Below, one piece after another: positions 3,336 to 57,748 of a DNA stretch of 64,000 nucleotides. The notes beneath the pieces are model-generated. The model had not been told where the DNA came from. It saw only the letters and a list, made by a program, of their open reading frames with translations, and did no database searches. Each line of letters begins with the position of its first letter. Positions within the stretch are counted from its first letter, which is position 1. This DNA is from an uncultured Erythrobacter sp. (GTDB taxonomy: Bacteria; Pseudomonadota; Alphaproteobacteria; Sphingomonadales; Sphingomonadaceae), in contig CANLZP010000002.1 in the NCBI GenBank assembly GCA_947495695.1, positions 682,001-746,000 on the forward strand. Reading direction: 5' to 3'. The position numbers and the translations under genes were made by a program.

Positions 3336-4208
3336 ATGTCTACAACATTTCAACTCGATACATCGACCAGTCGCGCCAACCCCACACCAAAGCCGCGCAA
3401 GCGGCTAACGGTGCCGCGCATCCGCGATCACAAGAAGGATGGCAAAACCAAACAACCTTTGGTCATGCTGACCGCATACACTGCCCGTCAGGCACAATTG
3501 CTGGATGCCCATTGCGATCTGTTGCTGGTGGGCGACTCGCTTGGACAGGTGATCTATGGCCTCGACTCTACCCTGCCCGTGACGGTCGACATGATGGTAA
3601 ACCATGGTGCTGCGGTGGTGCGTGGAAGCTATCACAGCGTTGTCGTGGTCGACATGCCATTTGGGTCTTACGAAGCATCTAAAGAGCAAGCCTTCAATAC
3701 TGCCAGCCAAATCATGGCAGAAACCGGCTGTGCGGCGGTAAAATTGGAAGGCGGCGAGGCAATGGCCGAAACCGTCTCCTTTCTTTCCAATCGCGGCATC
3801 CCTGTAATGGGCCATGTTGGTCTTACCCCTCAAGCCGTCAACGTTCTGGGCGGTTACGCAGCGCGCGGACGCAGCCAGCAGGAACACGATAAGATCATCT
3901 CTGACGGACAGGCGTTGCAGGACGCTGGCGCATTCTCGATCGTGGCCGAAGGGGTTATCGAGCCGATCGCAATTGCACTCACAAATACGCTCGAAATACC
4001 TGTGATTGGTATCGGCGCCTCGGCCCAATGCGATGGCCAAGTGCTGGTCACGGAAGATATGCTCGGCATGTTCGAACGGGTGCCACGATTCGTTAAACGC
4101 TATGAGGACATCGCGGCGATCATTGACAAGACGGTCGCTTCTTTTGCCTCAGAAGTCCGCGACCGCAGCTTTCCGAGCGAAGAACAAACTTATCAGCCCA
4201 AAAAATAG
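3336..4208 (+). CDS. panB: 3-methyl-2-oxobutanoate hydroxymethyltransferase
   Basis: PanB makes ketopantoate from 2-oxoisovalerate and 5,10-methylene-THF, the first committed step of pantothenate and CoA synthesis, in the cytosol. The 290-residue protein shows the family hallmarks: LVMLTAYTARQAQLLD at 42-57, LLVGDSLGQV with the metal ligand Asp67, VDMPFGSY, AVKLEGG, MGHVGLTPQ and the C-terminal VIGIGASAQCDGQVLV. It is slightly longer than the usual 265 residues because of an extended basic N terminus, which is normal in this order. panC and panD are not adjacent. The start at 3336 is the first ATG in frame; no strong ribosome binding site is seen. Confidence 0.95.
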   Translation: MSTTFQLDTSTSRANPTPKPRKRLTVPRIRDHKKDGKTKQPLVMLTAYTARQAQLLDAHCDLLLVGDSLGQVIYGLDSTLPVTVDMMVNHGAAVVRGSYHSVVVVDMPFGSYEASKEQAFNTASQIMAETGCAAVKLEGGEAMAETVSFLSNRGIPVMGHVGLTPQAVNVLGGYAARGRSQQEHDKIISDGQALQDAGAFSIVAEGVIEPIAIALTNTLEIPVIGIGASAQCDGQVLVTEDMLGMFERVPRFVKRYEDIAAIIDKTVASFASEVRDRSFPSEEQTYQPKK

Positions 4209-4278
4209 CCCTCTGTCCTTGCGCCTTGCTGGCGCTCTGCCTAGCGAGCTGTGAGAAATATCGGGTCCGGGGGCCGTC

Positions 4279-5355
4279 ATGCAAACGCTGCTGCGTTACT
4301 ACACATTTTCATTGATATTCACTGCCATCTGTATGGGACTGGCCGTGTGGTACGGCTGGGCTAGCACAAGTTCAGTCGTGGCAACACTCTCGATCCTTTG
4401 GATCGTGATTGTGCTGTCCATTCTAGAGGTCTCGCTCAGCTTTGATAACGCCGTGGTCAACGCCACAGTGTTGCGAGAAATGGACCCCGTTTGGCAGCGG
4501 CGATTTTTGACCTGGGGAATTCTGATCGCCGTCTTCGGCATGCGTATCGTATTCCCGATCGCGATTGTGGCAATTGCGGCAGGCATCGGCCCGGTTGACG
4601 CAGTAACCTTGTCATTGAACGAGCCTGAGGAATACGAGCGGATCGTTTCAGGCGCTCATGTGGGCATTGCCGGTTTTGGTGGCGCGTTCCTGGCCATGGT
4701 GGGCCTCACCTTCTTCTTCGATTCGGAAAAACAGATTCATTGGATCGGCTCGGTTGAGCGCGCCATTTCTCGCTTTAGCAGCGTACCTGCTGTTGAATTG
4801 GGGTTGGTCTTGCTGATCATCTACGGGGTTTCAACTCAGCTGACACCGGAAGATGCCAACACCTTCCTCACCGCCGGCATTCTGGGCCTTGTCACCTTCA
4901 TTGGCGTCCATGCTTTGGGTGCGATCATTGAACAACGCGAGGCACGCAAAAAGGCCGCTGGGGAAATCGTGCGATCCGGCCTAGGCGGATTTCTCTATCT
5001 CGAAGTGCTGGATGCCAGCTTCAGTTTCGATGGCGTGATCGGCGCTTTCGCTTTGTCGAACAATATGATCATCATTGCATTGGGCCTGTCTGTAGGCGCC
5101 ATGTTCGTGCGATCCATGACCATCCATCTGGTTCAAACCGGCACCTTGGCGCAATATCGCTATCTGGAGCATGGAGCGTTCTGGGCCATCATCGTGCTCG
5201 GCGGGATTATGCTGTTTTCAGCCAAATACCACATCCCCGAAACGATCACCGGCTTGCTGGGTGCGGTGTTGATCGGCCTGTCCTTGTTCTGGTCCATCCG
5301 CCACAACAAGCGCGAAGGGGCTGAGCCCACGAAGCTGCCGAATGTGGCTGACTAA
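4279..5355 (+). CDS. DUF475 membrane protein, TerC superfamily
   Basis: The 358-residue polytopic membrane protein has two copies of the acidic TerC-like signature, SLSFDNAVVNA (about residues 53-63) and LDASFSFDGVIGAF (about 243-256), each in a hydrophobic segment. This arrangement is that of DUF475, within the TerC/MntH-like metal exporter superfamily. Related proteins export Mn2+ or protect against tellurite, but DUF475 itself is not well characterised, so a metal transport role is inference. It lies 70 bp after panB and could be co-transcribed. Its stop overlaps the convergent next gene by 4 bp. Confidence 0.8.
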   Translation: MQTLLRYYTFSLIFTAICMGLAVWYGWASTSSVVATLSILWIVIVLSILEVSLSFDNAVVNATVLREMDPVWQRRFLTWGILIAVFGMRIVFPIAIVAIAAGIGPVDAVTLSLNEPEEYERIVSGAHVGIAGFGGAFLAMVGLTFFFDSEKQIHWIGSVERAISRFSSVPAVELGLVLLIIYGVSTQLTPEDANTFLTAGILGLVTFIGVHALGAIIEQREARKKAAGEIVRSGLGGFLYLEVLDASFSFDGVIGAFALSNNMIIIALGLSVGAMFVRSMTIHLVQTGTLAQYRYLEHGAFWAIIVLGGIMLFSAKYHIPETITGLLGAVLIGLSLFWSIRHNKREGAEPTKLPNVAD

Positions 5356-6311
5356 CCTGCCGATAGCTTAGCCGACAGTGGGGCTGCGATCAGCAGTTGC
5401 AGCAGGTGGTAAAGCAGCAGCGGGGCGATAACGAATCCGGCCACTTCCGGGGCGAACAGGATCGCTGCCAAGGGGGCACCAATGGCAACGCTTTTCTGCG
5501 CGCCAGCGAACAGAAAAGCTATCCTGTCCTCGCGTGGATAGCGCAGTGCTGTAGCCGCTTGCCACGCCCCCCAATTGGCAACAGCCAGAAAGGCCAGCGT
5601 AATTCCAATCAGCCAGGCCCATCCGATGGCATCGAACATCTGGGCAATGCCCTGCTCAACCGCACCGGAAAAAGCGACGTAAACGGCAATGCCGATCACA
5701 ATCCGGTCGAGCCAAACGACCTTGGCCTTGCGCTCGGTAATCCAGTCGCGAGTCCAATGCTGGACAGCCTGTCCAATGACGAATGGCAGCACCAAGATTG
5801 TTCCGATGCGAACAATTGCATCACTGCCAATGTCTGCAACCGCTCCACCACCCAAAATTGCGAAAAGCGGCGCTGTCACAAATACTCCAGCGATATTGAT
5901 CAACGCCGCTCCGACGACCGACAAAGCGACATTCCCGCCCGCAATCGTAGTGTAGCTGGTCGCTGATTGAATGGTGGAAGGCAGGGTGCCGAGGTAGAGG
6001 AAGCCCAAAGCCACCAAGGGCGGCAAGATGCCCTGCGCCAAGATCGAAATTCCCAATCCAGCGAGCGCCATCACGCCAAACACCCAGATGAACAATGGCA
6101 AGAAGAAGCCCCAATTGGCCAACCCGCGCAATATCTCCCCGCGCGGCACCCGCATGCCGTTGACCAGAAACAGGAGGAAGATGGCAACGCTGGTGACCAA
6201 TTGCGCGGTTTCACGAGCAGCACCAACAGCGGGCAACACAAACCCGGCCATGGTCGCGATCAGTAAGACCGCGATCATGGGATCGGCCAGCAAAGCAAGA
6301 CGAGATTTCAT
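5352..6311 (-). CDS. Bile acid:sodium symporter family protein (BASS)
   Basis: The 319-residue protein has about ten hydrophobic segments. The features match the SLC10A7/YfeH-like branch of the bile acid:Na+ symporter family: a short N terminus, the LFLVNGMRVPRGEI segment, PSTIQSATSYTTIAGGN (the crossover region with small polar residues) and GAQKSVAIGAPLA near the C terminus. Members carry organic anions, and the substrate here is unknown. It converges on the DUF475 gene with a 4-bp overlap, which leaves no room for a separate terminator. The ATG start at 6311 is clear. Confidence 0.85.
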   Translation of the reverse strand: MKSRLALLADPMIAVLLIATMAGFVLPAVGAARETAQLVTSVAIFLLFLVNGMRVPRGEILRGLANWGFFLPLFIWVFGVMALAGLGISILAQGILPPLVALGFLYLGTLPSTIQSATSYTTIAGGNVALSVVGAALINIAGVFVTAPLFAILGGGAVADIGSDAIVRIGTILVLPFVIGQAVQHWTRDWITERKAKVVWLDRIVIGIAVYVAFSGAVEQGIAQMFDAIGWAWLIGITLAFLAVANWGAWQAATALRYPREDRIAFLFAGAQKSVAIGAPLAAILFAPEVAGFVIAPLLLYHLLQLLIAAPLSAKLSAG

Positions 6312-6365: not shown

Positions 6366-7730
6366 TTAAGCCTGCAGATCATATTGCTTGAGCAAATCAT
6401 ACAGAGTTGGTCGGCTGATACCCAGCAATTTGGCTGTGCTGGAAATATTGCCCTCGCTGCGCGCCAACGCATGGCGAATGACCTTGCGATCGGCCTGCTC
6501 TCGCGCGGCCTTGATGTTCAAGACATCGTCCCGGTCTTCACCGCTTTCCTGTAAATCCAGATCGCCAGCGCACACCAGCTTGCCATCAGCCATGATCACC
6601 GCCCGCTTTACCCGGTTTTCCAGCTCGCGAACATTTCCCGGCCAATTCCATGCATCAATCGCGGCCAGAGCATCCGGCCCAAAGCCGGAGACCTGCGGGT
6701 TCATTTCGGTGGCAAAGCGTTTCAAGAATGCCTTGGCCAGAAGGGTAGCATCGCCATGACGCTCGGCCAGATTGGGGATCCGAACAACGATTTCGGCCAA
6801 ACGGTAGAACAAATCCTCGCGGAAGTTGCCTTCGCCAATCATGGCTTCCAGATCCTGATGGGTTGCGCAGACAATGCGTGTGTTGACCGCAATTTCCTTG
6901 CGACCACCAATGCGTTCAATCGTGCGCTCCTGTAGGAAGCGCAACAATTTTACCTGCAATGGCAGCGGAATGTCGCCCACCTCATCCAGGAAGAGCGTGC
7001 CGCCATTGGCGCTTTCGATCTTGCCCTCTGTGGTCTTAACCGCGCCGGTAAAGGCGCCCTTCTCATGACCGAACAGCTCGCTCTCCAGCAAGTTTTCCGG
7101 GATCGCCGCGCAATTGATCGCCACAAACGGACCATCGCTGCGATCGCTGGCATCATGCAGACCTTGCGCCAACAATTCCTTGCCGGTGCCGCTCGCACCC
7201 AGCAGCATGACCGATACATTGGTGTTGGCCACCCGCTCGATTGTCCGCGCAACTTTGACCATTTCAGGCGCACCCGTAATCATCCGACCCAGGACCTTGT
7301 GATCATCACCCACTCGCTGAACTAGGCGGCGGTTTTCCTGCTCGATTTCGTGCAGATTATAGGCTCGACGAACGATCAGGCCCAACGCCTCGATATCAAC
7401 CGGCTTTTGGTAAAAATCATAAGCGCCGCGCTCAATTGCTTGCAGGGCGCTTTCGCGCGCGCCGTGTCCCGATGCCACGATGACCTTGGTGTCGGGCTTT
7501 AGCTCCATGATGGCATCCAGCACGGCAAACCCTTCCGTTGTGCCATCAGGGTCAGGCGGCAAGCCCAAGTCCAGGGTGACAACAACCGGCTCTATCTGCC
7601 GCAGCGCTGCAATCGCACTTTCGCGATCACCTGCGATGGTGACTTCGAAATCGTCATAAGCCCATTTCAGTTGAGCTTGCAGACCGGCATCATCCTCGAT
7701 CACAAGCAGTGCAGGTTTCTTGTCGGCCAT
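6366..7730 (-). CDS. prsR: PEP-CTERM-box response regulator, NtrC-type sigma-54 activator
   Basis: The 454-residue protein has three domains in order: receiver (about 1-125, phospho-acceptor Asp54 in VVTLDLGLPP, and an unusually long following loop PDPDGTTEG), AAA+ sigma-54 activation (about 145-375, Walker A GASGTGKE, the sigma-54 contact GAFTGA, GTLFLDEVGD) and a Fis-type helix-turn-helix at the C terminus (ISSTAKLLGISRPTLYDLL). The order and receiver match PrsR, which pairs with PrsK and controls exopolysaccharide/exosortase gene sets. The ATG at 7730 overlaps the prsK stop as TGATG, so the two are translationally coupled. A GTG one codon earlier is also possible. Confidence 0.9.
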   Translation of the reverse strand: MADKKPALLVIEDDAGLQAQLKWAYDDFEVTIAGDRESAIAALRQIEPVVVTLDLGLPPDPDGTTEGFAVLDAIMELKPDTKVIVASGHGARESALQAIERGAYDFYQKPVDIEALGLIVRRAYNLHEIEQENRRLVQRVGDDHKVLGRMITGAPEMVKVARTIERVANTNVSVMLLGASGTGKELLAQGLHDASDRSDGPFVAINCAAIPENLLESELFGHEKGAFTGAVKTTEGKIESANGGTLFLDEVGDIPLPLQVKLLRFLQERTIERIGGRKEIAVNTRIVCATHQDLEAMIGEGNFREDLFYRLAEIVVRIPNLAERHGDATLLAKAFLKRFATEMNPQVSGFGPDALAAIDAWNWPGNVRELENRVKRAVIMADGKLVCAGDLDLQESGEDRDDVLNIKAAREQADRKVIRHALARSEGNISSTAKLLGISRPTLYDLLKQYDLQA

Positions 7731-46843: not shown

Positions 46844-46923
46844 ATTTTGCTTCAATGCAAGTCGGCCCTTGCCAAACGAATTCGTCGCCAATATAGGCGC
46901 ATCCCTGCCTGTCAAAAGGCTGC

Positions 46924-46998
46924 TCCCCGATAGCTCAGCGGTAGAGTAGGTGACTGTTAATCACTTGGTCGTTGGTTCGAATCCAACTCGGGGAGCCA
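46924..46998 (+). tRNA. tRNA-Asn (GTT), integration target
   Basis: The gene folds into a standard 75-base tRNA with encoded CCA: acceptor TCCCCGA/TCGGGGA, D arm AGCTCAGCGGTAGAGT, anticodon stem GTGAC/ATCAC-type around CTGTTAA (anticodon GTT) and T loop GTTCGAATC. Its 3' half from 46952 is the left copy of the 47-bp direct repeat that bounds the integrated element. The tRNA is intact and continues to function, as in most tRNA-targeting insertions. Confidence 0.95.
46952..46998. repeat. attL: 47-bp direct repeat in tRNA-Asn
   Basis: The sequence from GACTGTTAATCACTTGG through the CCA end of tRNA-Asn is repeated base for base at 57702-57748. It spans the anticodon loop, the T arm and the 3' end, as is typical for tyrosine integrases that target tRNA genes. 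Confidence 0.9.
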
Positions 46999-47167
46999 TT
47001 TTTTCAATGGCTTAGATGTTTCCAGCTACACCTAAGCTAAGCCTAGGTAGCAAATAGGTATCGGTGCGTTTCATTTCGGAAGGGTAGGACTGCCCTGCTG
47101 ACCCCAAGCTGCCTCCACCTCTAATACCCCCCTGTCGGTATATGAGAAAATTTCTTGATAATCTCAC
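46999..47167. other. Left junction, candidate integrase arm sites
   Basis: This gap between the tRNA and the operon 3' end contains CTAGGTAGCA at 47043-47052, which recurs at 57574-57583 next to the integrase gene near the other end. GCTACACCTAAGC just before it is a near inverted copy. Such short repeats near both att sites are what arm-type binding sites for Int or Xis look like. No gene is seen. Confidence 0.35.
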
Positions 47168-49411
47168 TTATCCGAATCTTTGCTTCACGTAGTCGGTGAT
47201 CGACAACCCAGATAGCTCAGCAGTCGCATTGCCTCCTCGCACAAAGAAGCGCTGCTCTTTTCCATCTTTCAGAAATGCGGGCTTGGGTCCTTTCTCGCAC
47301 TTAATTGATAGGACTCGCTCGCCGTCCTCGTCCTCGAAATGTGGATGGACATACGGAAGGAACACGTCGCCCATACGGTCCTTTATAAGGTTCACTAGGT
47401 GAAGACCCATCTTGTCCTCGTTCGGGAACTTGTCGGCTCCAATTCCTAGGACTTCGCCATCGTCCGCTACGCCAATTAACAATGTGCCCCCTTGAGCATT
47501 GAGGAAGCCAGCTATTGTCTTAAGCGCACTTAGATGCATTTTCTCGTCTGGCTGGCCCGTGTGCAGGTTGGTCCTCAACGTTGACTTGAACTCAACAGCT
47601 CCTGTTTCTCCACCACTGATAAGGTCAGCAATTTCAGGCGGAGCGGCTGGACTACCTTTTGTGGCCCCTCTCAGCTGCTCCCAAGCGCGGCGGACAACCT
47701 TCGCCATACGAAGTCGCCGCTCAACCAAGAATTCTTTATAGGGCATCTCCCACCACAGGTGCGGCAGGGCATGAAGATCATACAAGCGCTCTCGATCGCT
47801 CGCAGATAGCTCCGCGTCGATTTCAGGGACGTAGCTTGAAGGCGATTGCTTCCCAATTTTGATGTTTTTGGGCCACTCAACAGGAGCGAAGTTCGCTATC
47901 TGATTTATCTGCTTCAGGTCACCAACCCCCTGCTCTTCAAGGTAGCCTCTAGGAAAGAGGTGGTGCTGCTCTAGCGCAGCCTTAGTGCCTTTGATTGCAG
48001 GATCGACCATTGCTGCGATCTTAAGTGGGCTAAACAAAGCAGGAGCGTCCAACATGATAAGCGCAGCCTGATATGCGAAGAGAGTTGGACTGCGCGATGC
48101 TGATGTCGCCAACTGGCTTGGAAGGGTTATCTCCCAAAAGTCGTTTGTCAGTGTCGTATCACAGATGTCCCTTAGTCTACTGAGAAACGCTTCCCCGCTC
48201 TCCAAGTCTTTTAGCTGAGACAAGTCCGCCTCGAATCGAGTTTCTGGAGAGCTGGTGTATCGACCGGTCATTGCTGACATGAAATAGAATTGAGCAATGG
48301 CTTGCCGCATCTCTTCGCGGTCAATGCCGTAGTCGCGGATGCCAATCAAATAGACCACATAGCTATAGATAATGGCTGTCTCAGAGCTGACCATCTTTTG
48401 ACCTCGATAGCCAGCGAGCTTGAGCGAATCCAAAAAGTGATGCCAGTTTGCGAGATTTAGCACGGCTGCCTGTGCATCTTGCATCAAGCCAAACTGACCG
48501 TCTCGCTTCTCTGGGTTATCCAAGCCCGTGGATGCGTCTTTGCCCCGCAGTGCCCCATACACATTCTTAAGACGTGCTCGTTTTAGCGCGACACCTACAG
48601 TTGCTCTTAACATCTGATCCGGCGAAGGTTTAATGAAGTGATTGAAAGGTGAAGCCTGCCCTTCGCTAGGCACGGTTGCATTAAGGGCAAAGTTTTCAAG
48701 CTGCATCCTGCCCTCATCCCAGAAGACAGACATTAAGGTCATGATAAAGTCAGCTTGGTTGAGAGCTTTCCCCTTGCCATTGATACGGACAAACACCTCG
48801 GCAATCGTCTCTTCATCTACCGACGAATCCAAGGTGAGAGCGACAAAGGTATAGTTGGTCAGATTACGGAGGCTGTCGATAGCGTCCTCGATCTGCTCCT
48901 CTTCGTCCTCGGTGATCTCCCGAACTTCGGTGAGCTGTTTCAAGAACGCCTTTCGGAATGCCCCGGCTTTGAAGTCCGGTGCCCAAAGAACTGAGATATC
49001 AGGGATGAACGCCCGGTCTTTCTTGATGGCAGCGTCCGCCACGTCAAAACGACCGGACAAAGGGTTAAACGCAATCTGTATGCGCTCCTTCTTGAAGTTG
49101 GAGCGCAGGACCTCCATGCCCTTAACGACTGCGTAGAGTGAGGTCAGGCGCTGCTGACCGTCCACGATTGCCAGCTCAGGAACAGACTGTTTTGCACTGG
49201 TCCCGATGCTCTTGAGACCTGCATCAACTCCGGTTTTCCAGAACAGAAGAAAACCGGCTGGGTATCCACGATATAGGGAATCAAAGAGGTCACGAACGTT
49301 GACGTTGGGCCAGACGAAAGGACGCTGAAGCTCGGGCAGGCCAATCTTACCCATATCAATATCCTCGATCAGGGAGGATATTGGTACGTTGCTTGTCGTG
49401 AAAATTGCCAT
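47168..49411 (-). CDS. DUF262 - DUF1524 - AlbA_2 fusion protein (GmrSD-like)
   Basis: The 747-residue protein has three parts. Residues 1 to about 250 form a DUF262/GmrS-like domain: PELQRPFVW at 26-34 and the nucleotide-pocket motif IVDGQQRLTSLYAV with DGQQR at 84-88. The middle ends in a DUF1524-type HNH nuclease site, QHHLFPRGYLEE (HHLFP 483-487), followed by NQIANFAPV. The last 150 residues are a Schlafen-type AlbA_2 domain (ETGAVEFKSTLR, TLLIGVADDGEVLGI, FFVRGGN). GmrSD proteins are nucleotide-dependent nucleases that cut modified DNA, and AlbA_2 domains usually bind nucleic acid. It is the last gene of a three-gene operon, seven bases after the DUF262-HNH gene. I set the start at 49411, where the family N terminus begins. 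The combination of domains is unusual. Confidence 0.85.
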   Translation of the reverse strand: MAIFTTSNVPISSLIEDIDMGKIGLPELQRPFVWPNVNVRDLFDSLYRGYPAGFLLFWKTGVDAGLKSIGTSAKQSVPELAIVDGQQRLTSLYAVVKGMEVLRSNFKKERIQIAFNPLSGRFDVADAAIKKDRAFIPDISVLWAPDFKAGAFRKAFLKQLTEVREITEDEEEQIEDAIDSLRNLTNYTFVALTLDSSVDEETIAEVFVRINGKGKALNQADFIMTLMSVFWDEGRMQLENFALNATVPSEGQASPFNHFIKPSPDQMLRATVGVALKRARLKNVYGALRGKDASTGLDNPEKRDGQFGLMQDAQAAVLNLANWHHFLDSLKLAGYRGQKMVSSETAIIYSYVVYLIGIRDYGIDREEMRQAIAQFYFMSAMTGRYTSSPETRFEADLSQLKDLESGEAFLSRLRDICDTTLTNDFWEITLPSQLATSASRSPTLFAYQAALIMLDAPALFSPLKIAAMVDPAIKGTKAALEQHHLFPRGYLEEQGVGDLKQINQIANFAPVEWPKNIKIGKQSPSSYVPEIDAELSASDRERLYDLHALPHLWWEMPYKEFLVERRLRMAKVVRRAWEQLRGATKGSPAAPPEIADLISGGETGAVEFKSTLRTNLHTGQPDEKMHLSALKTIAGFLNAQGGTLLIGVADDGEVLGIGADKFPNEDKMGLHLVNLIKDRMGDVFLPYVHPHFEDEDGERVLSIKCEKGPKPAFLKDGKEQRFFVRGGNATAELSGLSITDYVKQRFG

Positions 49412-49418
49412 CTTGCCG

Positions 49419-50522
49419 CTACTTACCTGACTTTCGCCGATTGTCCTCGCGGCAAAGCATCTGACAGTTTTCAGAATTTGTCTGTCCGCCCTCATGCCAA
49501 GGAGTGATATGGTCAGCTTCCATTTCAGAGAACTCAAACGTCTCGCTGCAAACTGGGCAAACGCCATTTTGGCGCTCGTAGGCCTCACGGCGCTGATTAG
49601 GAGTGAAGGCCCTAATATTGAGATGTTTCTCCTTGCGGTTCAACGCATAGGAATAAATCCCCTTTTTGTTGGTGACGTCTTCGTCAGCCATCAACGCTGC
49701 TACTTCATCCTCGATTGCTGATGGGTCGAGTTTGGCTTCCCTAAATTCATTGTAGAGGAAGCCCCAAGGCACGCCCTTCATCTCTTTACGATACTGGACA
49801 AATACCGCCTTCACCCAATTCAGTACTGAGTTGAAATACAGCCACAGATCGTTGGCACTTGGTTCATCTTGATGCGCCGACATATAATTCTCTATGTCGC
49901 CGTCTTTGGATGCCCATTTGATGGCAGTTTCGAGGTAATCTTGACGAATAACTGAACCACTCAGGTAGTCAGAACCTAGCCCATAAGCCGGGCAATTGCT
50001 TCTACTAAAATATCGCTTGGCGTCAGAAACCCAAGGGCCGTGGTAAACTGCATTCAGCAGCTCCTGATCTGTCAGCTCTTCGCCTGCAATGTTGATGGTC
50101 TTAAACCACTCAAGCTTCTCGCTATCGGTTCCGCTACAAAGATAGACCATTAGCTCGTAATCTAGGAGCGCATCTCGTTCGTCCTGTTGCAGGTTATGGA
50201 AGGCCCTTTTTTCAGGAAAGCTCCCGATCTGCACTGAAAAGTCGCCCTCGACATACTGACAAAGAGAAATGGTTCGCTGCTGTCCATCGATCACTTCAAA
50301 GCCCCCATCATCTCGCACAGCCCAGTACATGACGTTGAGAGGGAAACCTTTGGACACAGTATCAATAACTGCATCTCGCTGCTTGTCTTTGTAAATGAAT
50401 TCACGCTGGTAAGGCGGACGGATATCTAGGCGTCCGTCGAATCCTAGAACTCCGGCCTCCTCATTGTCTTCGTACCCTTGCGTAAGCTCTCGAACGGATA
50501 TTTCTTTTAGTTCAATTTTCAT
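49419..50522 (-). CDS. DUF262 - HNH endonuclease protein
   Basis: The 367-residue protein begins with a DUF262 domain: PPYQREFIYKDKQRDAVIDT (36-55) and VIDGQQRTISL with DGQQR at 79-83. A helical middle follows. The C terminus is a McrA-type HNH nuclease with CPVC at 322-325, ADHITPW at 336-342 (His338), and later NCQMLC and EDN (Asn352/Asn361). The pairs of cysteines would bind a structural zinc. All nuclease residues seem present. It is ten bases after the methyltransferase gene and seven bases before the DUF262-AlbA_2 gene, so the three are one transcript. It likely cuts DNA under nucleotide control, with specificity set by the modification state of DNA. That role is inference. Confidence 0.85.
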   Translation of the reverse strand: MKIELKEISVRELTQGYEDNEEAGVLGFDGRLDIRPPYQREFIYKDKQRDAVIDTVSKGFPLNVMYWAVRDDGGFEVIDGQQRTISLCQYVEGDFSVQIGSFPEKRAFHNLQQDERDALLDYELMVYLCSGTDSEKLEWFKTINIAGEELTDQELLNAVYHGPWVSDAKRYFSRSNCPAYGLGSDYLSGSVIRQDYLETAIKWASKDGDIENYMSAHQDEPSANDLWLYFNSVLNWVKAVFVQYRKEMKGVPWGFLYNEFREAKLDPSAIEDEVAALMADEDVTNKKGIYSYALNRKEKHLNIRAFTPNQRREAYERQNGVCPVCSETFEFSEMEADHITPWHEGGQTNSENCQMLCREDNRRKSGK

Positions 50523-50532
50523 CGTCGGGCTT

Positions 50533-51546
50533 TCACTTGAGTTTCACGAAAATTCGAGCATACATTCGCTTCCCGTTCAGATAGGCTCTGTCGGTTTTTC
50601 CGCCCCATTCCCCCTTGATGAGATCCGGCAGCAAGCCATCTTTCACTTCAAAGTCTGATCCGACAATCTCGAATTGGTCGGGGTTGTACTTATTAAGAAA
50701 CGTGATCGGAACACCCATCACACCCCTATAATCAAAGGGGATTTTCGTGACCTGACTCACTTCAATTGCTTTATAGTTGTCATATTCTGGGTACTTCGAT
50801 GGATCGAACGACTCAAACAGGATCAAGTCTTCGTGCCGCTTCGCGTTCTCAAGGTTCGTGAACCAGCACGTATTGTTAGAGGAAACAATCCTGTTACCCT
50901 CCTCATCAATCCGTGCCTCAGTACCGTGTAGCGGATAATGCGGAGGAACAATAAAGCCTGAGAAATTGCGGTTGCTATTCACCCCAATCCAAACCTGATC
51001 ATTTTTGATCAGCTTAAATATCTCCTTGTACGTGATCGCATTCCAAGTCCCTATAATCAGGAACTTTTTATCAAACTCTATGAGCTGAGAGACATACTCT
51101 CGAAATAAGGAGAATGGCGGATTGGTAACGACCACATCTGACCGTTTGAGAAGCTGGATGCATTCCGCACTCCGAAAATCGCCGTCTCCGTCTAAAGGCC
51201 TTATGCCGATCTCTTCAACGTCAGGGATATTGTTGCCATTTTTGTCACCATCGTACTCTAGATAAATCGCACGCTCTTCGTCATGCTTGCTGAACAGGTC
51301 TCGATCCCTGTTTTTGTAACAAGTGGTGATCAGCCCATCTAGGCCCAGCCTTTCAAAGTTGTAAGAGAAGTAATGGAAGAAATTGCTCTTCCTCGGATCA
51401 TCACAGTTGCAGAATACTGTCTTACCGTGAAAATGTTTCCGATAGTGGCGAAGCTCTTTTTCGATGTCCGAAAGAACAGTGTAGAACTCATCACTCTTTG
51501 CTTTTCGCGCTTGCTGGAGAAATTTATTTGTCGCTACTCTCGCCAC
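50533..51546 (-). CDS. M.EcoRI-like adenine-specific DNA methyltransferase
   Basis: The 337-residue protein matches the EcoRI methylase family closely from my memory of M.EcoRI: ATNKFLQQARKAKSDEFYT at the start, FCNCDDPRKSNFFHYF, DGDFRSAECIQLLKRSD, the catalytic VVTNPPFSLFREYV (NPPF, the N6-adenine motif IV), FLIIGTWNAITYKEIFKLI, GFIVPPHYPLHGTEARID and GVMGVPITFLNKYNP. M.EcoRI methylates the inner adenine of GAATTC; whether this protein has the same target is unknown. The start is the GTG at 51546. No R.EcoRI-like gene is adjacent; instead two DUF262 nuclease-type genes follow in the same operon. Confidence 0.9.
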   Translation of the reverse strand: MARVATNKFLQQARKAKSDEFYTVLSDIEKELRHYRKHFHGKTVFCNCDDPRKSNFFHYFSYNFERLGLDGLITTCYKNRDRDLFSKHDEERAIYLEYDGDKNGNNIPDVEEIGIRPLDGDGDFRSAECIQLLKRSDVVVTNPPFSLFREYVSQLIEFDKKFLIIGTWNAITYKEIFKLIKNDQVWIGVNSNRNFSGFIVPPHYPLHGTEARIDEEGNRIVSSNNTCWFTNLENAKRHEDLILFESFDPSKYPEYDNYKAIEVSQVTKIPFDYRGVMGVPITFLNKYNPDQFEIVGSDFEVKDGLLPDLIKGEWGGKTDRAYLNGKRMYARIFVKLK

Positions 51547-51667
51547 ATTAGCCCCGTATATTACGCGAAATCATTGGCCCCATCTTATTGCAGCTGCGAC
51601 TCCACGTCTAGCCATGTGATGTATATTTTGTCGGTTCCCCCACATACGTTGAGAGGCGACATAAGTC

Positions 51668-52009
51668 TCACGCCAAATAGATGTTCTCTCGGTGAAATTT
51701 CATGAAGTTTGAACGCGCCACAGAACCTAGATCAATGCTCATCTCACTAGCTAATCCGAATGAGCTTAGGCCGCTTTGGCCAAGTGCTTTGGAAAACAGC
51801 AATCCACTTTCTTCCTCGAACGAAATATAGCCCTTATCAAAGAGGGCATCAGCGTTCGCAGCAAGCAACAATCCATTGTTTGGATCAAGCCGCTCAGCTG
51901 CATCTGAAAATCGCCAAGGCTTGATGTGGGACGCCCTAAGAAGGTCAGGCTGAGAAATGCCAGTTAGAGGATACCTTGTTCTGTCTAAAACGTGCGCTAA
52001 GCTAGTGCA
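51668..52009 (-). pseudogene. N-terminally truncated HNH endonuclease (PF13391-type)
   Basis: The minus-strand frame from 52009 reads LAHVLDRTRYPLTGISQPDL, then LLRASHIKPWRFSDAAERLD, then NNGLLLAANADALFDKGYIS, ending about 60 residues later in FHRENIYLA. This is the C-terminal HNH domain of the family with the LLRASHIKPW signature. Two in-frame TGA codons lie just upstream of 52009 and no ATG, GTG or TTG occurs before the domain, so the intact protein cannot be made. The break lies 20 bp from the start of the divergent exported-protein gene, which suggests that insertion of that gene removed the N-terminal part. The first usable start is a TTG at 51871, inside the domain. Confidence 0.75.
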
Positions 52010-52029
52010 TCATCATTCTGGAGCAGATT

Positions 52030-52824
52030 ATGAAATACGCGCTTCTTACTTTCGCGTTAGTCCTTGAAACTTTCGGAAATCAGAGAGTTGAAGCCGATTC
52101 TGCGGACTGTAGCGCATACTTAGACCAACAGATTAGGCTGCGAACTTTTGATGATGTCTGGAAGTCGCTTCGAGATGTACCGAAGCAAGGTCAGTACGAG
52201 ACAAACGCATCTTATGAAAACCGGGTGGCTGAGATTAATCCGTCTCAGCCGATTTGGATCCAACTGGTCAGATCCCAAAAATCACCAATAGGCAGATTCG
52301 AGAAGGATTCTGGGATTCTAAGAATCAGTAGCTGGGATCTCTTCTATTATGATGCTCCAGACTTTGGATTGGATCTTGGGTTTCAGAATTACACCAATAC
52401 ATTCGGTTTCATTGCAACCTACTACGGTCAGTCAACTGGTGAACCATATCGAGCTGCGAACTCGATGGGGGCCAGGACAATAGTGGATGTAACTACTTCC
52501 TATTACGACCTAATTCTCGCTGCCGGAGACAACCAGAGAAAGCGTCGATGGAGGCTAAATCCACGTCAACGATATCTCCAATCCTGGGAAATTGATGGAA
52601 CACCTGAGAAAATACACAACATCGCGGAAAGAGGAAATTTGGCTTGGCTTGTGGCTCCCAGAAGAAAGGCGGCCGAAAGCCAAAAAGTCTTGACGCACTC
52701 GGCTACTTTCGACGATCCCATTGACACATTCGCAGTAGCAAAGCGTACAATGCTGGCAGATGTGTTTTGTACTGGCCTGCTAGACGAAGATGGTATTGTC
52801 ATCAGGTCATCGCCCTTGGAATAG
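52030..52824 (+). CDS. Hypothetical exported protein, element cargo
   Basis: GGAG lies seven bases before the ATG at 52030. The 264-residue product starts with a signal peptide (MKYALLTFALVLETFGNQRV followed by ADSADC). The mature part contains KQGQYETNASYENRVAEINP, then beta-rich segments such as LDLGFQNYTNTFGFIATYYG. It is the only plus-strand gene in the element. I do not recognise its family; similar ETxAxYExRVA patterns occur in periplasmic proteins of unknown function. Its AT-rich codon use differs from the flanks. Confidence 0.6.
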   Translation: MKYALLTFALVLETFGNQRVEADSADCSAYLDQQIRLRTFDDVWKSLRDVPKQGQYETNASYENRVAEINPSQPIWIQLVRSQKSPIGRFEKDSGILRISSWDLFYYDAPDFGLDLGFQNYTNTFGFIATYYGQSTGEPYRAANSMGARTIVDVTTSYYDLILAAGDNQRKRRWRLNPRQRYLQSWEIDGTPEKIHNIAERGNLAWLVAPRRKAAESQKVLTHSATFDDPIDTFAVAKRTMLADVFCTGLLDEDGIVIRSSPLE

Positions 52825-53550: not shown

Positions 53551-54006
53551 TTACGCTGCACGCGCAATTCTCCCATAGGGAAGCATCAAACAAACAGGGT
53601 AATCTACCTCAGCCAAATCCAGCAAATTTAGCAGCTCTGCACGACGATGCTTTGACACGAATAAAGATGGGTTGAAGGGGTCCTGAAGGCGAAGCCGTCC
53701 GTTCTTACGATCAATGTGGCCATGCACTGTAACCTCGCCTGCACTCCGCTTAGCATTGGCACACTGAATCCAAGTATCAACATCATCCGATGGCCAAAGG
53801 GCGAGAGAAATCCGTGCCTCATCAAACCGCCATTCTGTAAAACAGACCCGAATTGGACGGCCTAGAAGCGGCGCATCAAAGCACCAAGAACGTCGGTCGC
53901 ATTGCGGTTCACAGTTTGAACCTAACGGGTCAATAATTGCCTTGCCAATGCCGACATCGACCACATGCGATAGCAGTTTGTCGCTTAGGTACATTCGCTT
54001 GTTCAT
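53551..54006 (-). CDS. Hypothetical protein coupled to the primase gene
   Basis: The ATG overlaps the primase stop as ATGA, so the 151-residue product is translated together with it. Visible features are four cysteines in the first half (NCEPQCDRRSWC and IRVCFTEW) and the HIDRKNGRLRLQDPFNPS stretch. I do not recognise a domain. Coupling suggests a role in replication of the element or in its control. Confidence 0.65.
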   Translation of the reverse strand: MNKRMYLSDKLLSHVVDVGIGKAIIDPLGSNCEPQCDRRSWCFDAPLLGRPIRVCFTEWRFDEARISLALWPSDDVDTWIQCANAKRSAGEVTVHGHIDRKNGRLRLQDPFNPSLFVSKHRRAELLNLLDLAEVDYPVCLMLPYGRIARAA

Positions 54007-56090
54007 GCCGCTTCCTCAAAAAATCTTGTGCGGAGCTTCAAGCCGACTCGGAACTTAAGCCCACTACTCCGTTTCTCCGCTCGAAATCCTTTGGCGCTCA
54101 GCGTCCGACCAAACATGGTCTGGCTCACTGGAGATCGGCCCGTATCATTGGAATGCTTGCGGTAATTCTCATAAAGTGACGAAGATGACATCGCCGCGCC
54201 TGGAGCAACTTCGCATCGCTCTTCGATGAACTGAGAGACGGTGTCCATTTCCGAGCGATACCCAGCGGTCGCCTCAGCAACAACTTTCGGGGTTTGCAGC
54301 CCATGCTGATACCAATCCATCGCTCCTCGAACGATCCATGCGAGGATGCCCGATTCTTCGGCTTCCAACTTCTTGCTCAGTTCACGATCCTGCTCTTCGA
54401 CGGAGAAATTACGATTGAATGGGATGATCCGAAGGCGGCGCCAAATCGCAGAGTCATTTCCGTTCACATGCGGAAGCTGGTTTGTAGCAAGACAGACCTT
54501 GAACGTGGGCCTAAACTCGATGAATTCTTTGAACAGGAATCGGGCTACAATAGGTTCATCGCCAGTAATCTGCTTCAGCAATCCGTCCGCCAATCGCTGG
54601 TCTGCGTTAGCCTCAGATGCTGTGACAAGGCGAGACCCTGCCAAACGCGCCAGATCATTTGAGGCAGCACCTGTCTTAGCAATCAGCGTCTCTGTAGGCG
54701 TGTGCTTGCCATAAGGTCCAAGTACGCCGCGCAAGGTGTTCAGTAGAGTGCTCTTACCGTTGGCCCCTTCCCCAATAAGGAAGAAGAGGCACTGCTCTCG
54801 GGTCTCTCCGGTTGCGGTATAGCCTGCCGCTCGCTGAACGTACTCCGCCAGCTCCTTATCATGCATCAAGATGTCATCAAGGAAGCAATCAAAGGTAGGG
54901 CAAGCAGCCTCAGGTACGTAGTCGATGTCGATAATGTGCGTGGCAAAAGCCTCACGATCATGCGGCAACAGCTCGCCTGACCTTAGATCAATCATACCAT
55001 TCGCTACGTTAAGGAGGTGCGGCTGGCGGTCAAAAGCCGAAAAATTGATCGAAATGCCCGGTTCGGTTTTCGCCAGTTCAATCATTCCTGAGATGCGAGG
55101 CGATGTTTGAGATTTGTGAGCAAACTGTACTCGTCGCTTGATCGTATCTGGGTCGTTGCTCAGCTTTGCAGTTGAGAGTAGCTCATCCACGACTTGCTTT
55201 GCCTGACGAGCGATGTGTCCCTCAATGTCCCGCTGCCAACAGCGACCATCCCAAACGAACCAGACTTTCGCAGATGGTTCATACCGGGCATTGCCATCGA
55301 GTTTGTCGACCAAACGACGACCGTTTCCTAGTTCAGTATCTGGATACTCCGAGCCACGCTCATAGCGTTTGACGCTTTGAATAATCCGCTCGACCTCATC
55401 TTCGGCTAGCGGGGGAACACAGCAAGCTACGTTTTCCGCCAAAACAGCTGCCCTAATCGCTTCGTCAGACAGGCCACGAGCGACGAGACCGCATGCCATA
55501 CGGAAAAGAGTGTCATTGCGACCACCTTCCTCAACCGGGCCGCCAAACTTGGTCTCTGCTGATTTGATGCGTCGTTGACCACAAGCAAGGTCGATCAACC
55601 AACTAGGAGCCTCTGCTATATCTACTTCACGTTCCCAACAGTAAGCATTGCCAGACTCATGGATGCTCGGGGCAGCTACAACGTAGCCTCCAGCTTTCAG
55701 GTCAACTCCAGCGTAGCCATCAACGTTAATACTGTCTCTCAACCCTGCGGTTTCGGCTGGGACATTAAAATATAGGTGCCTGCCGCCTCCCCCGGTTTTA
55801 GCCGACATTGTATCTGGTAGCTCGCCAAATGTGCGCTCAAAGCGTTCAAAACTGGCGTCGCCATCGTTGCGCGGGTCAATATCGACCACAATGAGGCGCG
55901 ACTGTTCACCCGTTACTATGCCGATGTTGTGATTGCTGTCTGGCTCAAACCAGTGTGAAATCTGTCCTGCATCTGTTGAGGCATCGTTCTTGCCATGCGC
56001 TGTTGCGGGGATCTTACTTCTTGGACGCAGCGGCAAGACCGGAAAGCCTCTATCCGCGTAATCACGTGCTGCTGAAGCGACTGAAATCAT
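54003..56090 (-). CDS. Prim-pol / D5-type primase-helicase
   Basis: The 695-residue protein joins a bifunctional primase-polymerase domain to a D5/P4-type helicase. The prim-pol active site is VVDIDPR (Asp70, Asp72) with GGRHLYF (His105). A linker domain with a D5-N-like region follows, then the SF3 helicase with Walker A FLIGEGANGKSTLL (440-448) and the later WRRLRIIPFNRNF motif. This architecture is that of P4-like satellites and integrative plasmids and should unwind and prime replication of the excised element. It is coupled by ATGA both to the AlpA-like gene before it and to the 151-residue gene after it. Confidence 0.9.
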   Translation of the reverse strand: MISVASAARDYADRGFPVLPLRPRSKIPATAHGKNDASTDAGQISHWFEPDSNHNIGIVTGEQSRLIVVDIDPRNDGDASFERFERTFGELPDTMSAKTGGGGRHLYFNVPAETAGLRDSINVDGYAGVDLKAGGYVVAAPSIHESGNAYCWEREVDIAEAPSWLIDLACGQRRIKSAETKFGGPVEEGGRNDTLFRMACGLVARGLSDEAIRAAVLAENVACCVPPLAEDEVERIIQSVKRYERGSEYPDTELGNGRRLVDKLDGNARYEPSAKVWFVWDGRCWQRDIEGHIARQAKQVVDELLSTAKLSNDPDTIKRRVQFAHKSQTSPRISGMIELAKTEPGISINFSAFDRQPHLLNVANGMIDLRSGELLPHDREAFATHIIDIDYVPEAACPTFDCFLDDILMHDKELAEYVQRAAGYTATGETREQCLFFLIGEGANGKSTLLNTLRGVLGPYGKHTPTETLIAKTGAASNDLARLAGSRLVTASEANADQRLADGLLKQITGDEPIVARFLFKEFIEFRPTFKVCLATNQLPHVNGNDSAIWRRLRIIPFNRNFSVEEQDRELSKKLEAEESGILAWIVRGAMDWYQHGLQTPKVVAEATAGYRSEMDTVSQFIEERCEVAPGAAMSSSSLYENYRKHSNDTGRSPVSQTMFGRTLSAKGFRAEKRSSGLKFRVGLKLRTRFFEEAA

Positions 56091-56366: not shown

Positions 56367-57548
56367 CTAATTCTCAATTGGCATACAACTTGCTTGCCTC
56401 AATAGCTCTGCGCCAATTGCATCCGCAGCGGTGCGTACGGGTTCTTGCGCCAAATGAGCATAACGCGTTGTGGTCGCTGCTTGCTTGTGGCCTAGCAGTC
56501 GACCCAGCATGTGCAGGCTAAGCCCCATGCCAGCACCCACGCTGGCGAAAGTGTGCCTTAAGTCATGCAAGCGAACATCTTCTAGCTCAGCCATTTCACG
56601 CACCAGACGCCAAGGCTTTTGCAAGTTGACCAAATGAGCATTCTTTCTCTTGCCTGCGATGACGAAAGTTTCGTCTGCTTGGGTCGTTTTCAAGTCGTTG
56701 AGAACTTCGATTGCGGGTTCGCCTAGAGACACAAGCAAAGCGCCCGACTTAGTATCAGGCAGCCTCAACACCCTCGCTTCCAGATCGACCCATGACCACT
56801 CAAGCTTCAGCACCTCATTTAACCGGCGACCAGTCAGCATAAGGAGCTTGATTGCCGCCAAGGCGCTGCTCGACACTTTTGATGCAGCCGCCTCAGAGTT
56901 CAGCACCTCCCAAAGGCGTGCGACTTCATCACTGGAAAGATAGCGCTCCCGTTTCTCTTCCTTGTATCGATCGATGTTTTTAGCTGGATTGGAGTTATCA
57001 GGCCTCAATCCCCAACGCTCAGCTAGGCTGAACATCTTACTGGACAGGGCAAGCGTTCTGTTCGCCTCATAGGGTGTTTCTCGAAGCGAGTGATGTATTT
57101 TCGCGATGTCATCACGTGTGATTGACGCGACTTTCTTCGTTCCAATAGCAGGAAGTAGATGAGAGCCAATTAGCCGCTTGTCAGAGCGGATTGAACTTTC
57201 CTTCTTCCTGATTTCAGCATGCTCCGCCAAGTACCTCTCACTTAAGTGCCTAACGTTTGGGGCTGATCGATCCTGCGAACGCTGCTGTGAAGGGTCATTC
57301 CCCTGCGCAACCTCCGCCAGCCATCGCTTTGCGATCTCACGAGCAGCCTCTGGCCGCAATGGACCATGCAAACCGATTGTTGGTCGCCTCTGCTGACCTT
57401 CTCTTGTGCGGTAATAGAGGAAGTAGGAACGTCTACCTTTCGGTGTAACCTTGCAGCCAAACCCCGTCAGCTCGTTATCCCAGATGATTACGTCGGAAGC
57501 CTCCGGCTGGACTGCCTCAACCCTACGAACTGTTAGCTTTGCCTTCAT
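56367..57548 (-). CDS. Tyrosine integrase (DUF4102-type)
   Basis: The 393-residue recombinase has an N-terminal DUF4102/arm-binding part (DNELTGFGCKVTPKGRRSY), a core-binding domain (about 100-195) and a catalytic domain (about 205-380). The active-site residues are visible: Arg241 in LTGRRLNEVL, His328 and Arg331 in LHDLRHTFAS, His354 in LLGHKQ and Tyr363 in TTRYAHL. It should recombine the 47-bp tRNA-Asn site. I set the start at the ATG at 57548, where GGGGG precedes. It is at the right end of the element, next to attR and far from the intact tRNA. Confidence 0.95.
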   Translation of the reverse strand: MKAKLTVRRVEAVQPEASDVIIWDNELTGFGCKVTPKGRRSYFLYYRTREGQQRRPTIGLHGPLRPEAAREIAKRWLAEVAQGNDPSQQRSQDRSAPNVRHLSERYLAEHAEIRKKESSIRSDKRLIGSHLLPAIGTKKVASITRDDIAKIHHSLRETPYEANRTLALSSKMFSLAERWGLRPDNSNPAKNIDRYKEEKRERYLSSDEVARLWEVLNSEAAASKVSSSALAAIKLLMLTGRRLNEVLKLEWSWVDLEARVLRLPDTKSGALLVSLGEPAIEVLNDLKTTQADETFVIAGKRKNAHLVNLQKPWRLVREMAELEDVRLHDLRHTFASVGAGMGLSLHMLGRLLGHKQAATTTRYAHLAQEPVRTAADAIGAELLRQASCMPIEN

Positions 57549-57701
57549 GCTACCCCCGCTAAATAAGTAGCAGCTAGGTAGCACAAGGGAGGGCTCTTGG
57601 ACAATGACTAGCGCACTGCACCAACCCTAACCATTAGGTTTACAGAGCTTTTATCGACGTGCAGCGTAGCAGAGCAAACGAGAGAGTATTTTAGGACAAG
57701 A

Positions 57702-57748
57702 GACTGTTAATCACTTGGTCGTTGGTTCGAATCCAACTCGGGGAGCCA
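57702..57748. repeat. attR: second copy of the 47-bp tRNA-Asn repeat
   Basis: This copy matches 46952-46998 exactly but lacks the upstream half of the tRNA: before it stands TTTTAGGACAAGA in place of the D arm. It is therefore the remnant end of the integration, and the sequence after it is the original chromosome. Confidence 0.9.

Follow-up and report, generated by a model that had tools for sequence, protein, structure and literature searches.

The 64,000-nucleotide stretch of DNA analyzed here, hereafter the window, comes from an uncultured Erythrobacter sp. (assembly GCA_947495695.1, contig CANLZP010000002.1, positions 682,001 to 746,000) and carries three adjacent genes on its minus strand. 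These follow one another in the order M, R, and a third gene, where M stands for a methyltransferase of the M.EcoRI family, R for a DUF262-HNH protein, and the third gene for a DUF262-AlbA_2 protein. M, an adenine methyltransferase of 337 amino acids with a GTG start, occupies positions 50533–51546; R, a predicted nuclease effector of 367 amino acids, positions 49419–50522; and the third gene, which codes for a DUF262, His-Me-like, AlbA_2 protein of 747 amino acids with an ATG start and is predicted to be a separate accessory defence gene, positions 47168–49411. The open reading frame (ORF) listed for the latter from position 49588 is a mechanical extension into R. The intergenic gaps are of 10 and 7 bases, as the initial annotation had stated and as re-checking of the coordinates bore out. 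Sequence comparison of these proteins with their relatives indicates that target specificity probably resides in M alone, and that R is an effector under the control of M or of its mark.

M matches the Pfam EcoRI_methylase model (PF13651; E 1.3e-133) over residues 10–337, which places it in the M.EcoRI family, and the PADLOC model MTase_II PDLC03297 over its full length (E 4.6e-129). Its AlphaFold2 model (predicted local distance difference test score, pLDDT, 87.8) has a class I methyltransferase fold; the Foldseek rows obtained with it were weak, and a sequence search of the PDB with M gave no match. The NPPF catalytic motif (residues 142–145; 51112–51123, minus strand) is intact, as first described, and NPP followed by F or Y is present in 197/197 distinct M. 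This set was obtained by removing identical M (244 before, 197 after); M below 240 bits, R below 450 bits, and pairs more than 1500 bases apart were also excluded from the comparison. Along 147 M–R pairs, conservation of M dips at residues 186–229 and near 300–325, and that of R is even throughout. The two variable segments of the window's M, both predicted to take part in target recognition, are a central one (segment 1, residues 186–229; 50860–50991, minus strand), which is of the EcoRI type, and a C-terminal one (segment 2, residues 295–326; 50569–50664, minus strand), which is not. The C-terminal type is common to four of the loci fetched for comparison (numbered with an L: L025, L038, L080, and L173), and their central segments differ. 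The window's M is 56% identical to the M.EcoRI of L171. Residues Trp183, Tyr204, and His235 of M.EcoRI have been studied for DNA contact; if they are numbered without the first Met, they correspond to W184, Y205, and H236 of the L171 protein, in or beside the central segment.

R matches Pfam GmrSD_N (DUF262; E 4.9e-19) and HNH (E 9.9e-13); at E up to 0.001 the only matches are GmrSD_N, HNH, and HNH_5, with none to a superfamily 2 (SF2) helicase. Its nuclease part corresponds to HNH of PF01844 and not to DUF1524, so that R departs from the GmrSD-type architecture of DUF262 plus DUF1524. The PADLOC model REase_II PDLC03418 matches it over its full length (E 4.1e-150), as well as 62/62 members of the R family. 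An NCBIfam scan gave only a weak Cas9d HNH match, below cut-off, and a PDB sequence search with R and the third protein returned HNH and BrxU matches. In the AlphaFold2 model of R (pLDDT 91.6), fold searching points to an N-terminal ParB/Srx-like domain (residues 3–147; 50082–50516, minus strand), for which BrxU is the closest solved fold (Z 8.9, root-mean-square deviation 3.6, 129 residues aligned), followed by SspE (Z 7.3, deviation 3.8, 131 aligned) and by ParB rows near Z 7. The C-terminal HNH domain (residues 304–367; 49422–49613, minus strand) resembles the HNH domain of Cas9 (Z 7.8), the nicking HNH protein 4h9d (Z 7.0, 66 aligned), and McrA (Z 6.9). Residues 148–300 gave no row in the fold search, which does not speak for a new fold. 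The model shows no obvious separate recognition domain, but this region is hardly covered by the search. The DGQQR motif of R (residues 79–83; 50274–50288, minus strand) is kept in 153/153 R, and in 148/153 it is accompanied by D337-H338, N352, and N361. DGQQR had been noted in both DUF262 proteins of the window and is intact in both. The HNH-type site also attributed to both holds for R, given its Pfam match and kept residues; in the third protein there is only a His-Me-like stretch, 'EQHHLFPRG', seen by eye.

The distribution of R was followed in 158 loci picked by similarity to the window's R, which comprise 78 viral-contig loci and the best 80 of at least 582 matches in an alignment scan of species genomes. 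These best 80 belong to 20 named phyla, and half are from Bacteroidota. In 149 of the 158 loci, no more than 2.6 kb separates M from R, and in 133 of them the distance is under 200 bases. Most frequently M is directly upstream of R (128 loci); in 16 loci it is upstream with a gap, and in five directly downstream. Of the remaining nine loci, five have a partial R, three are cut at the contig end, and one (L077) is without M. In the window's order, R is found at E up to 1e-40 in 9/396 genomes, including the window's own; the other eight and two loci seen earlier all carry M, which is interrupted in one of them, and none carries the third gene. L316 and L317 coincide with L007 and L008, so that the order set contributes eight new loci and not ten. 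Judged by gene neighbourhood, M and R together make up the conserved unit, a two-gene module present in many phyla; the recurring restriction unit proposed initially thus stands for this pair, whose nuclease and NTPase-type motifs are kept, and not for the third gene as a member.

This pairing also bears on the possibility of type IV logic, in which one or both DUF262 proteins would cut modified foreign DNA and M would have an unrelated role. The DUF262 restriction enzymes that are best known, GmrSD and BrxU, do cut modified DNA (PMC12707154), and the third gene may follow this logic. R, by contrast, would need no methylase neighbour if it were a type IV enzyme, and it has one in nearly all loci. 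Like GmrSD and BrxU, R has an N-terminal DUF262 domain, as does the third protein, but it lacks DUF1524 and has a constant methylase partner. Type IV logic is the least credible of the explanations considered here.

In contrast to the constancy of the pair, the two segments of M vary widely. When segments were clustered at a distance of 0.55, 151 DUF262-linked M showed 26 central types, 80 C-terminal types, and 117 combinations of the two; these counts omit L047, L066, and L234, where segments are incomplete (previous counts were 27, 82, and 119 for 153 M), and other cut-offs gave 34 and 85, or 20 and 67, types. Among the 30 C-terminal types with at least two members, 21 occur with more than one central type. 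The number of combinations and the association of C-terminal types with several central types mean that the segments reassort. R similarity correlates with similarity of the M backbone (0.589). Once the backbone is taken into account, the partial correlation of R with the central segment is 0.015 (152/500 permutations were as high), and that with the C-terminal segment is −0.027 (411/500). Of the 2.67 bits in the central type (126 pairs, eight types), the best R column holds only 0.20 bits above shuffles, while residue 168 of M, outside the central segment, reaches 1.06 bits on the same measure. Similarly, among the 14 pairs of loci whose R share 90% identity or more, the central type differs in 10 and the C-terminal type in 12, and R that are 97–98.6% identical are found with different M segments. 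For instance, DNA identity (per 60 columns) between L022 and L029, from two Rickettsiales metagenome-assembled genomes (MAGs), is 0.87–1.00 across most of M, the intervening gene, and R, falls to 0.52–0.67 and 0.38 at the two M segments, and is 0.75 beside the second. Their R are 97% identical, and the 11 differing residues are scattered.

These results weigh on the orthodox view of the pair as a type II system, where R reads the same site as M, is blocked by methylation, and shifts its specificity through a few residues that our comparison missed. That view has the PADLOC REase_II and MTase_II models on its side, which cover both proteins, as well as the strict pairing of M and R in separate adjacent genes and the precedent of MmeI-family enzymes, whose specificity is changed by two residues (PMC4081073). 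Nevertheless, no R column tracks the central segment, the partial correlations are near zero, and nearly identical R stand beside different M segments; in this indirect sequence test, R specificity does not appear to change together with that of M. Instead, R seems not to read the target, and at the sequence level one conserved R goes with many M specificities.

A control is provided by M linked to an EcoRI-type endonuclease, where the nuclease itself reads GAATTC. Ten loci (L179, L180, L182–L188, and L267) stand outside it, as their fetched stretch encodes such an endonuclease without an M of this family. All 13 distinct M of this kind have a single central type, and 12/12 a single C-terminal type, whereas random subsamples of 12 R-linked M contain at least three central types each. 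At a backbone identity of 0.5–0.6, identity of the central segment is 0.715 in EcoRI-linked M versus 0.279 in DUF262-linked M. As the segments are fixed with the EcoRI endonuclease despite differing backbones, the control supports the view that they are specificity parts, which would be held fixed where the partner reads the site. Such fixation next to a true type II enzyme also speaks against an orthodox type II role for R. EcoRI restriction–modification thus shares its M family with the window, including the type of the central segment, and differs in that its nuclease is unrelated to DUF262-HNH and both its M segments are fixed, those of R-linked M being variable. R.EcoRI and M.EcoRI themselves recognize the same site by different means (PMC4081073). 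There are also two loci, L020 and L022, where both segments are of the EcoRI type, yet the partner is DUF262-HNH. Because the central segment of the window's M is of the EcoRI type, the site of the window system is probably partly common with GAATTC, while the non-EcoRI C-terminal segment suggests that the whole target site differs from it. The absence of an EcoRI-type endonuclease from the operon, remarked on initially, extends to the whole genome of the window, where nothing matches the EcoRI endonuclease family (PF02963); an EcoRI endonuclease encoded elsewhere in that genome was ruled out on this ground.

Further evidence comes from loci where M is interrupted. Six loci of the R set combine an interrupted M with an intact R (L030, L041, L047, L060, L078, and L142). 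In addition, in L312, a locus from a single-contig genome with a more distant R (44% identity; about 4084–5478), about half of M has been replaced by approximately 1.3 kb of unrelated sequence, leaving an M fragment at 6512–7165 and an intact R. An R that reads its site should kill in the absence of M, and these loci therefore favour an R that needs M, at the expense of orthodox type II behaviour. In L078 (5159) and L142 (5149), the break in M is at runs of 12 and 11 G, respectively, and pentamers in 12 copies are found in or before M in L046 (5620) and L111 (4865). Long repeats at these places are as expected of phase-variable, switchable systems. An apparent interruption of another sort is an in-frame TGA within M at L066:5475, from a Gracilibacteria MAG. 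It is probably translated there, since TGA codes for Gly in Gracilibacteria, which would explain the 'stop'.

A number of observations weigh against placing specificity in M alone. EcoRI-linked M form a single clade, with one partner change on the M tree. A surface patch on M that would mark DUF262-linked proteins or contact R was sought without success: only three M columns separated the two partner classes, too few to be used. Mapped onto the R tree, the central types require at least 85 changes, where the minimum is 25 and shuffles give 95–108; segment types are therefore not fully random on this tree, and some inheritance of segment type remains. Near-identical R still differ at 5–12 positions, and few residues could alter what R reads. 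Because membership of the R set was decided by resemblance to the window's R, conservation of R is inflated and the power of the comparison reduced. It is also a limit that we infer, from sequence, that the segments set what is read. Of the seven loci with an interrupted M, five come from MAGs or viral contigs and may reflect assembly error, and the cells could also be protected by a different methylase. One R gene, that of L126, likewise contains a long G tract, close to the end of its contig, and no chance level accompanies the repeat counts. Finally, PADLOC, which is built on earlier knowledge, labels R as a type II enzyme. Even so, orthodox type II restriction appears unlikely for this pair.

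If specificity does reside in M, the latter would mark adenines at a site set by its two exchangeable recognition segments, and R would cut or nick DNA, as its motifs and fold suggest, with the DUF262 part as a predicted nucleoside triphosphatase (NTPase). R would act via M, in an M–R complex at unmarked sites, in the manner of the Mod-Res complexes of type III systems, with the ParB/Srx domain replacing the helicase. A second choice is that R senses the marked state, as SspE and DndI do with phosphorothioate. In that case, the DUF262 pocket of R would detect N6-methyladenine (m6A) in host DNA of any sequence and gate the NTPase and nuclease, and no R–M contact would be needed. Such sensing would account for the blindness of R to the M segments. 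The N-terminal domain of R aligns with those of SspE and BrxU, and in SspE and DndI sensing of the mark by the DUF262 domain controls an HNH nickase (PMC9646914, PMC11662687), although a Z near 7 can mean just a common arrangement. On the other hand, any m6A methylase should serve a sensor of this kind, yet the neighbour in 149/158 loci belongs to this one family. It is because of this nearly invariable neighbour that we infer an M–R complex in preference to simple m6A sensing, which we consider rather unlikely, if less so than orthodox type II restriction.

The preferred arrangement has partial counterparts in several known systems. As in type III Mod-Res, specificity would sit in M alone, with exchangeable recognition segments, and some M have long repeats; by contrast, R has no Pfam helicase match and has a ParB/Srx-like domain and HNH instead, and M, with its two variable segments, is an M.EcoRI-family enzyme. 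Exchange of recognition domains has been described for types I and III, including movement of target-recognition domains in type III M (PMC3983042). Two reassorting recognition segments are likewise a feature of type I HsdS (PMC3983042), a separate S subunit, whereas here the methyltransferase itself contains them. SspABCD-SspE and DndI systems also have a DUF262 and HNH-type nuclease controlled by a self mark (PMC9646914, PMC11662687), and R has the DUF262 fold with DGQQR found in them. They differ in that the partner of R is an adenine methyltransferase rather than a phosphorothioation system, and in that the HNH of R is of the PF01844 type. DUF262 proteins are in fact known as GmrSD/BrxU and as SspE (PMC12707154, PMC9646914, PMC11662687).

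The idea that the pair had gone unrecorded has to be given up, as PADLOC has full-length type II models for both M and R. Its type II label implies a site-reading R, for which the sequence comparison offers no support. In the literature searched, no paper on the M–R pair or on the proposed division of labour was found; PMC7785942 and PMC8713573 deal with other subjects. Thus, the pair is already in databases, and targeting by M only is new relative to the literature searched. There is a fair chance that the M–R pair is a distinct class. More specifically, M may be the sole specificity subunit, with two independently swappable recognition segments in one chain, and R may be specificity-blind and work only with M, a class of restriction–modification undescribed in the literature searched; this fuller formulation is put forward tentatively.

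If specificity resides in M alone, a common compact two-gene 'type II' system would have to be re-read, and exchange of short stretches of M would be enough to create new specificities, in the way known from types I and III, while R stays as it is. This would explain how such systems could quickly follow phages. A ParB/Srx-type protein would join the known restriction motors, and type IV-like DUF262 nucleases would be linked to ordinary adenine methylation. Many such M would methylate just one strand of an asymmetric site if the two segments read different half-sites. The pair could also offer a small platform for reprogrammable restriction, and the natural pair L022 and L029 makes the central claim directly testable.

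The third gene had been taken as part of a three-gene set. An arrangement in which the three genes form one system, with both DUF262 proteins acting together, would agree with their common strand and short gaps, neither of which holds a minus-strand terminator-like site in a simple scan (the same scan found no sigma-70-like promoter in 46850–52100). Moreover, a relative of the third gene lies upstream of M, with 4 bases between them, in L092:2211-5150, a locus of a Patescibacteria MAG where an extra gene separates M and R, and another is found on a Rhodococcus plasmid (L006:4126-8621), where an EcoRI endonuclease and M are followed by the related DUF262 protein. Nevertheless, such relatives occur in only 4/268 fetched loci, namely the window, these two, and a solo one, and in 0/10 further M–R loci from the window's order (two of them already among the 268). 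In the window's class, matches at E up to 1e-10 occur in 25/385 genomes and for the most part cover the N-terminal domain. Relatives covering 99% of the protein, on Sinorhizobium pSymA and in Haloquadratum, have other restriction genes near but no M–R pair within 6 kb, and a viral-contig scan with the third protein found no relative. In the loci fetched, the gene is nowhere else beside an M–R pair in this form. The three-gene set was thus rejected as a conserved unit, and joint action of both DUF262 proteins is very improbable. More probably, the third gene is a DUF262-AlbA_2 defence gene in its own right, which was inserted downstream and so came to share the operon here. In Pfam, its protein matches GmrSD_N (residues 11–225; E 5.8e-31) and SLFN_AlbA_2 (residues 602–732; E 6.8e-16); the DUF1524 domain once assigned to it has no match even at E up to 1. 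Its nearest PADLOC family is the candidate HEC-05 (E 8.9e-31).

The operon lies on a tRNA-integrated element, as had been proposed, which forms an island of 10.8 kb. It is bounded by an exact 47-base att repeat, one copy of which (46952–46998, plus strand) is the last 47 bases of a tRNA-Asn gene (46924–46998) at the island edge, and the other (57702–57748, plus strand) adjoins the integrase. The latter is a tyrosine integrase (56367–57584, minus strand; Pfam Phage_integrase, E 1.2e-21), and a primase/D5 helicase is also encoded (54003–56090, minus strand; Prim-Pol, D5_N, and PriCT_1). Upstream of M is the C-terminal remnant of another HNH nuclease gene (51668–52000, minus strand; HNH_2, E 2.3e-12), which matches only positions 168–273 of 286 of a PADLOC HNH model and is preceded by stops. 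Judged by this remnant, an earlier restriction-type system was probably lost from the island.

Other arrangements of these genes were seen among the fetched loci. In L077:3418-4518, where R is without this M family, the upstream ORF begins like the N-terminus of R and runs into a cytosine-methylase-like protein. Two consecutive M genes precede a single R in L005, L120, and L153. Of the 75 viral-contig loci L189–L263, 21 have an M but neither nuclease, although both flanks offer space for one, and eight more are cut short; the 31 M classed as having no partner include some truncated by contig ends. Viral M without a nuclease are possible self-protection methylases of phages. Finally, the M–R pair of L003, carried by a plasmid of Macrococcoides canis, has genes annotated for macrolide resistance as neighbours.

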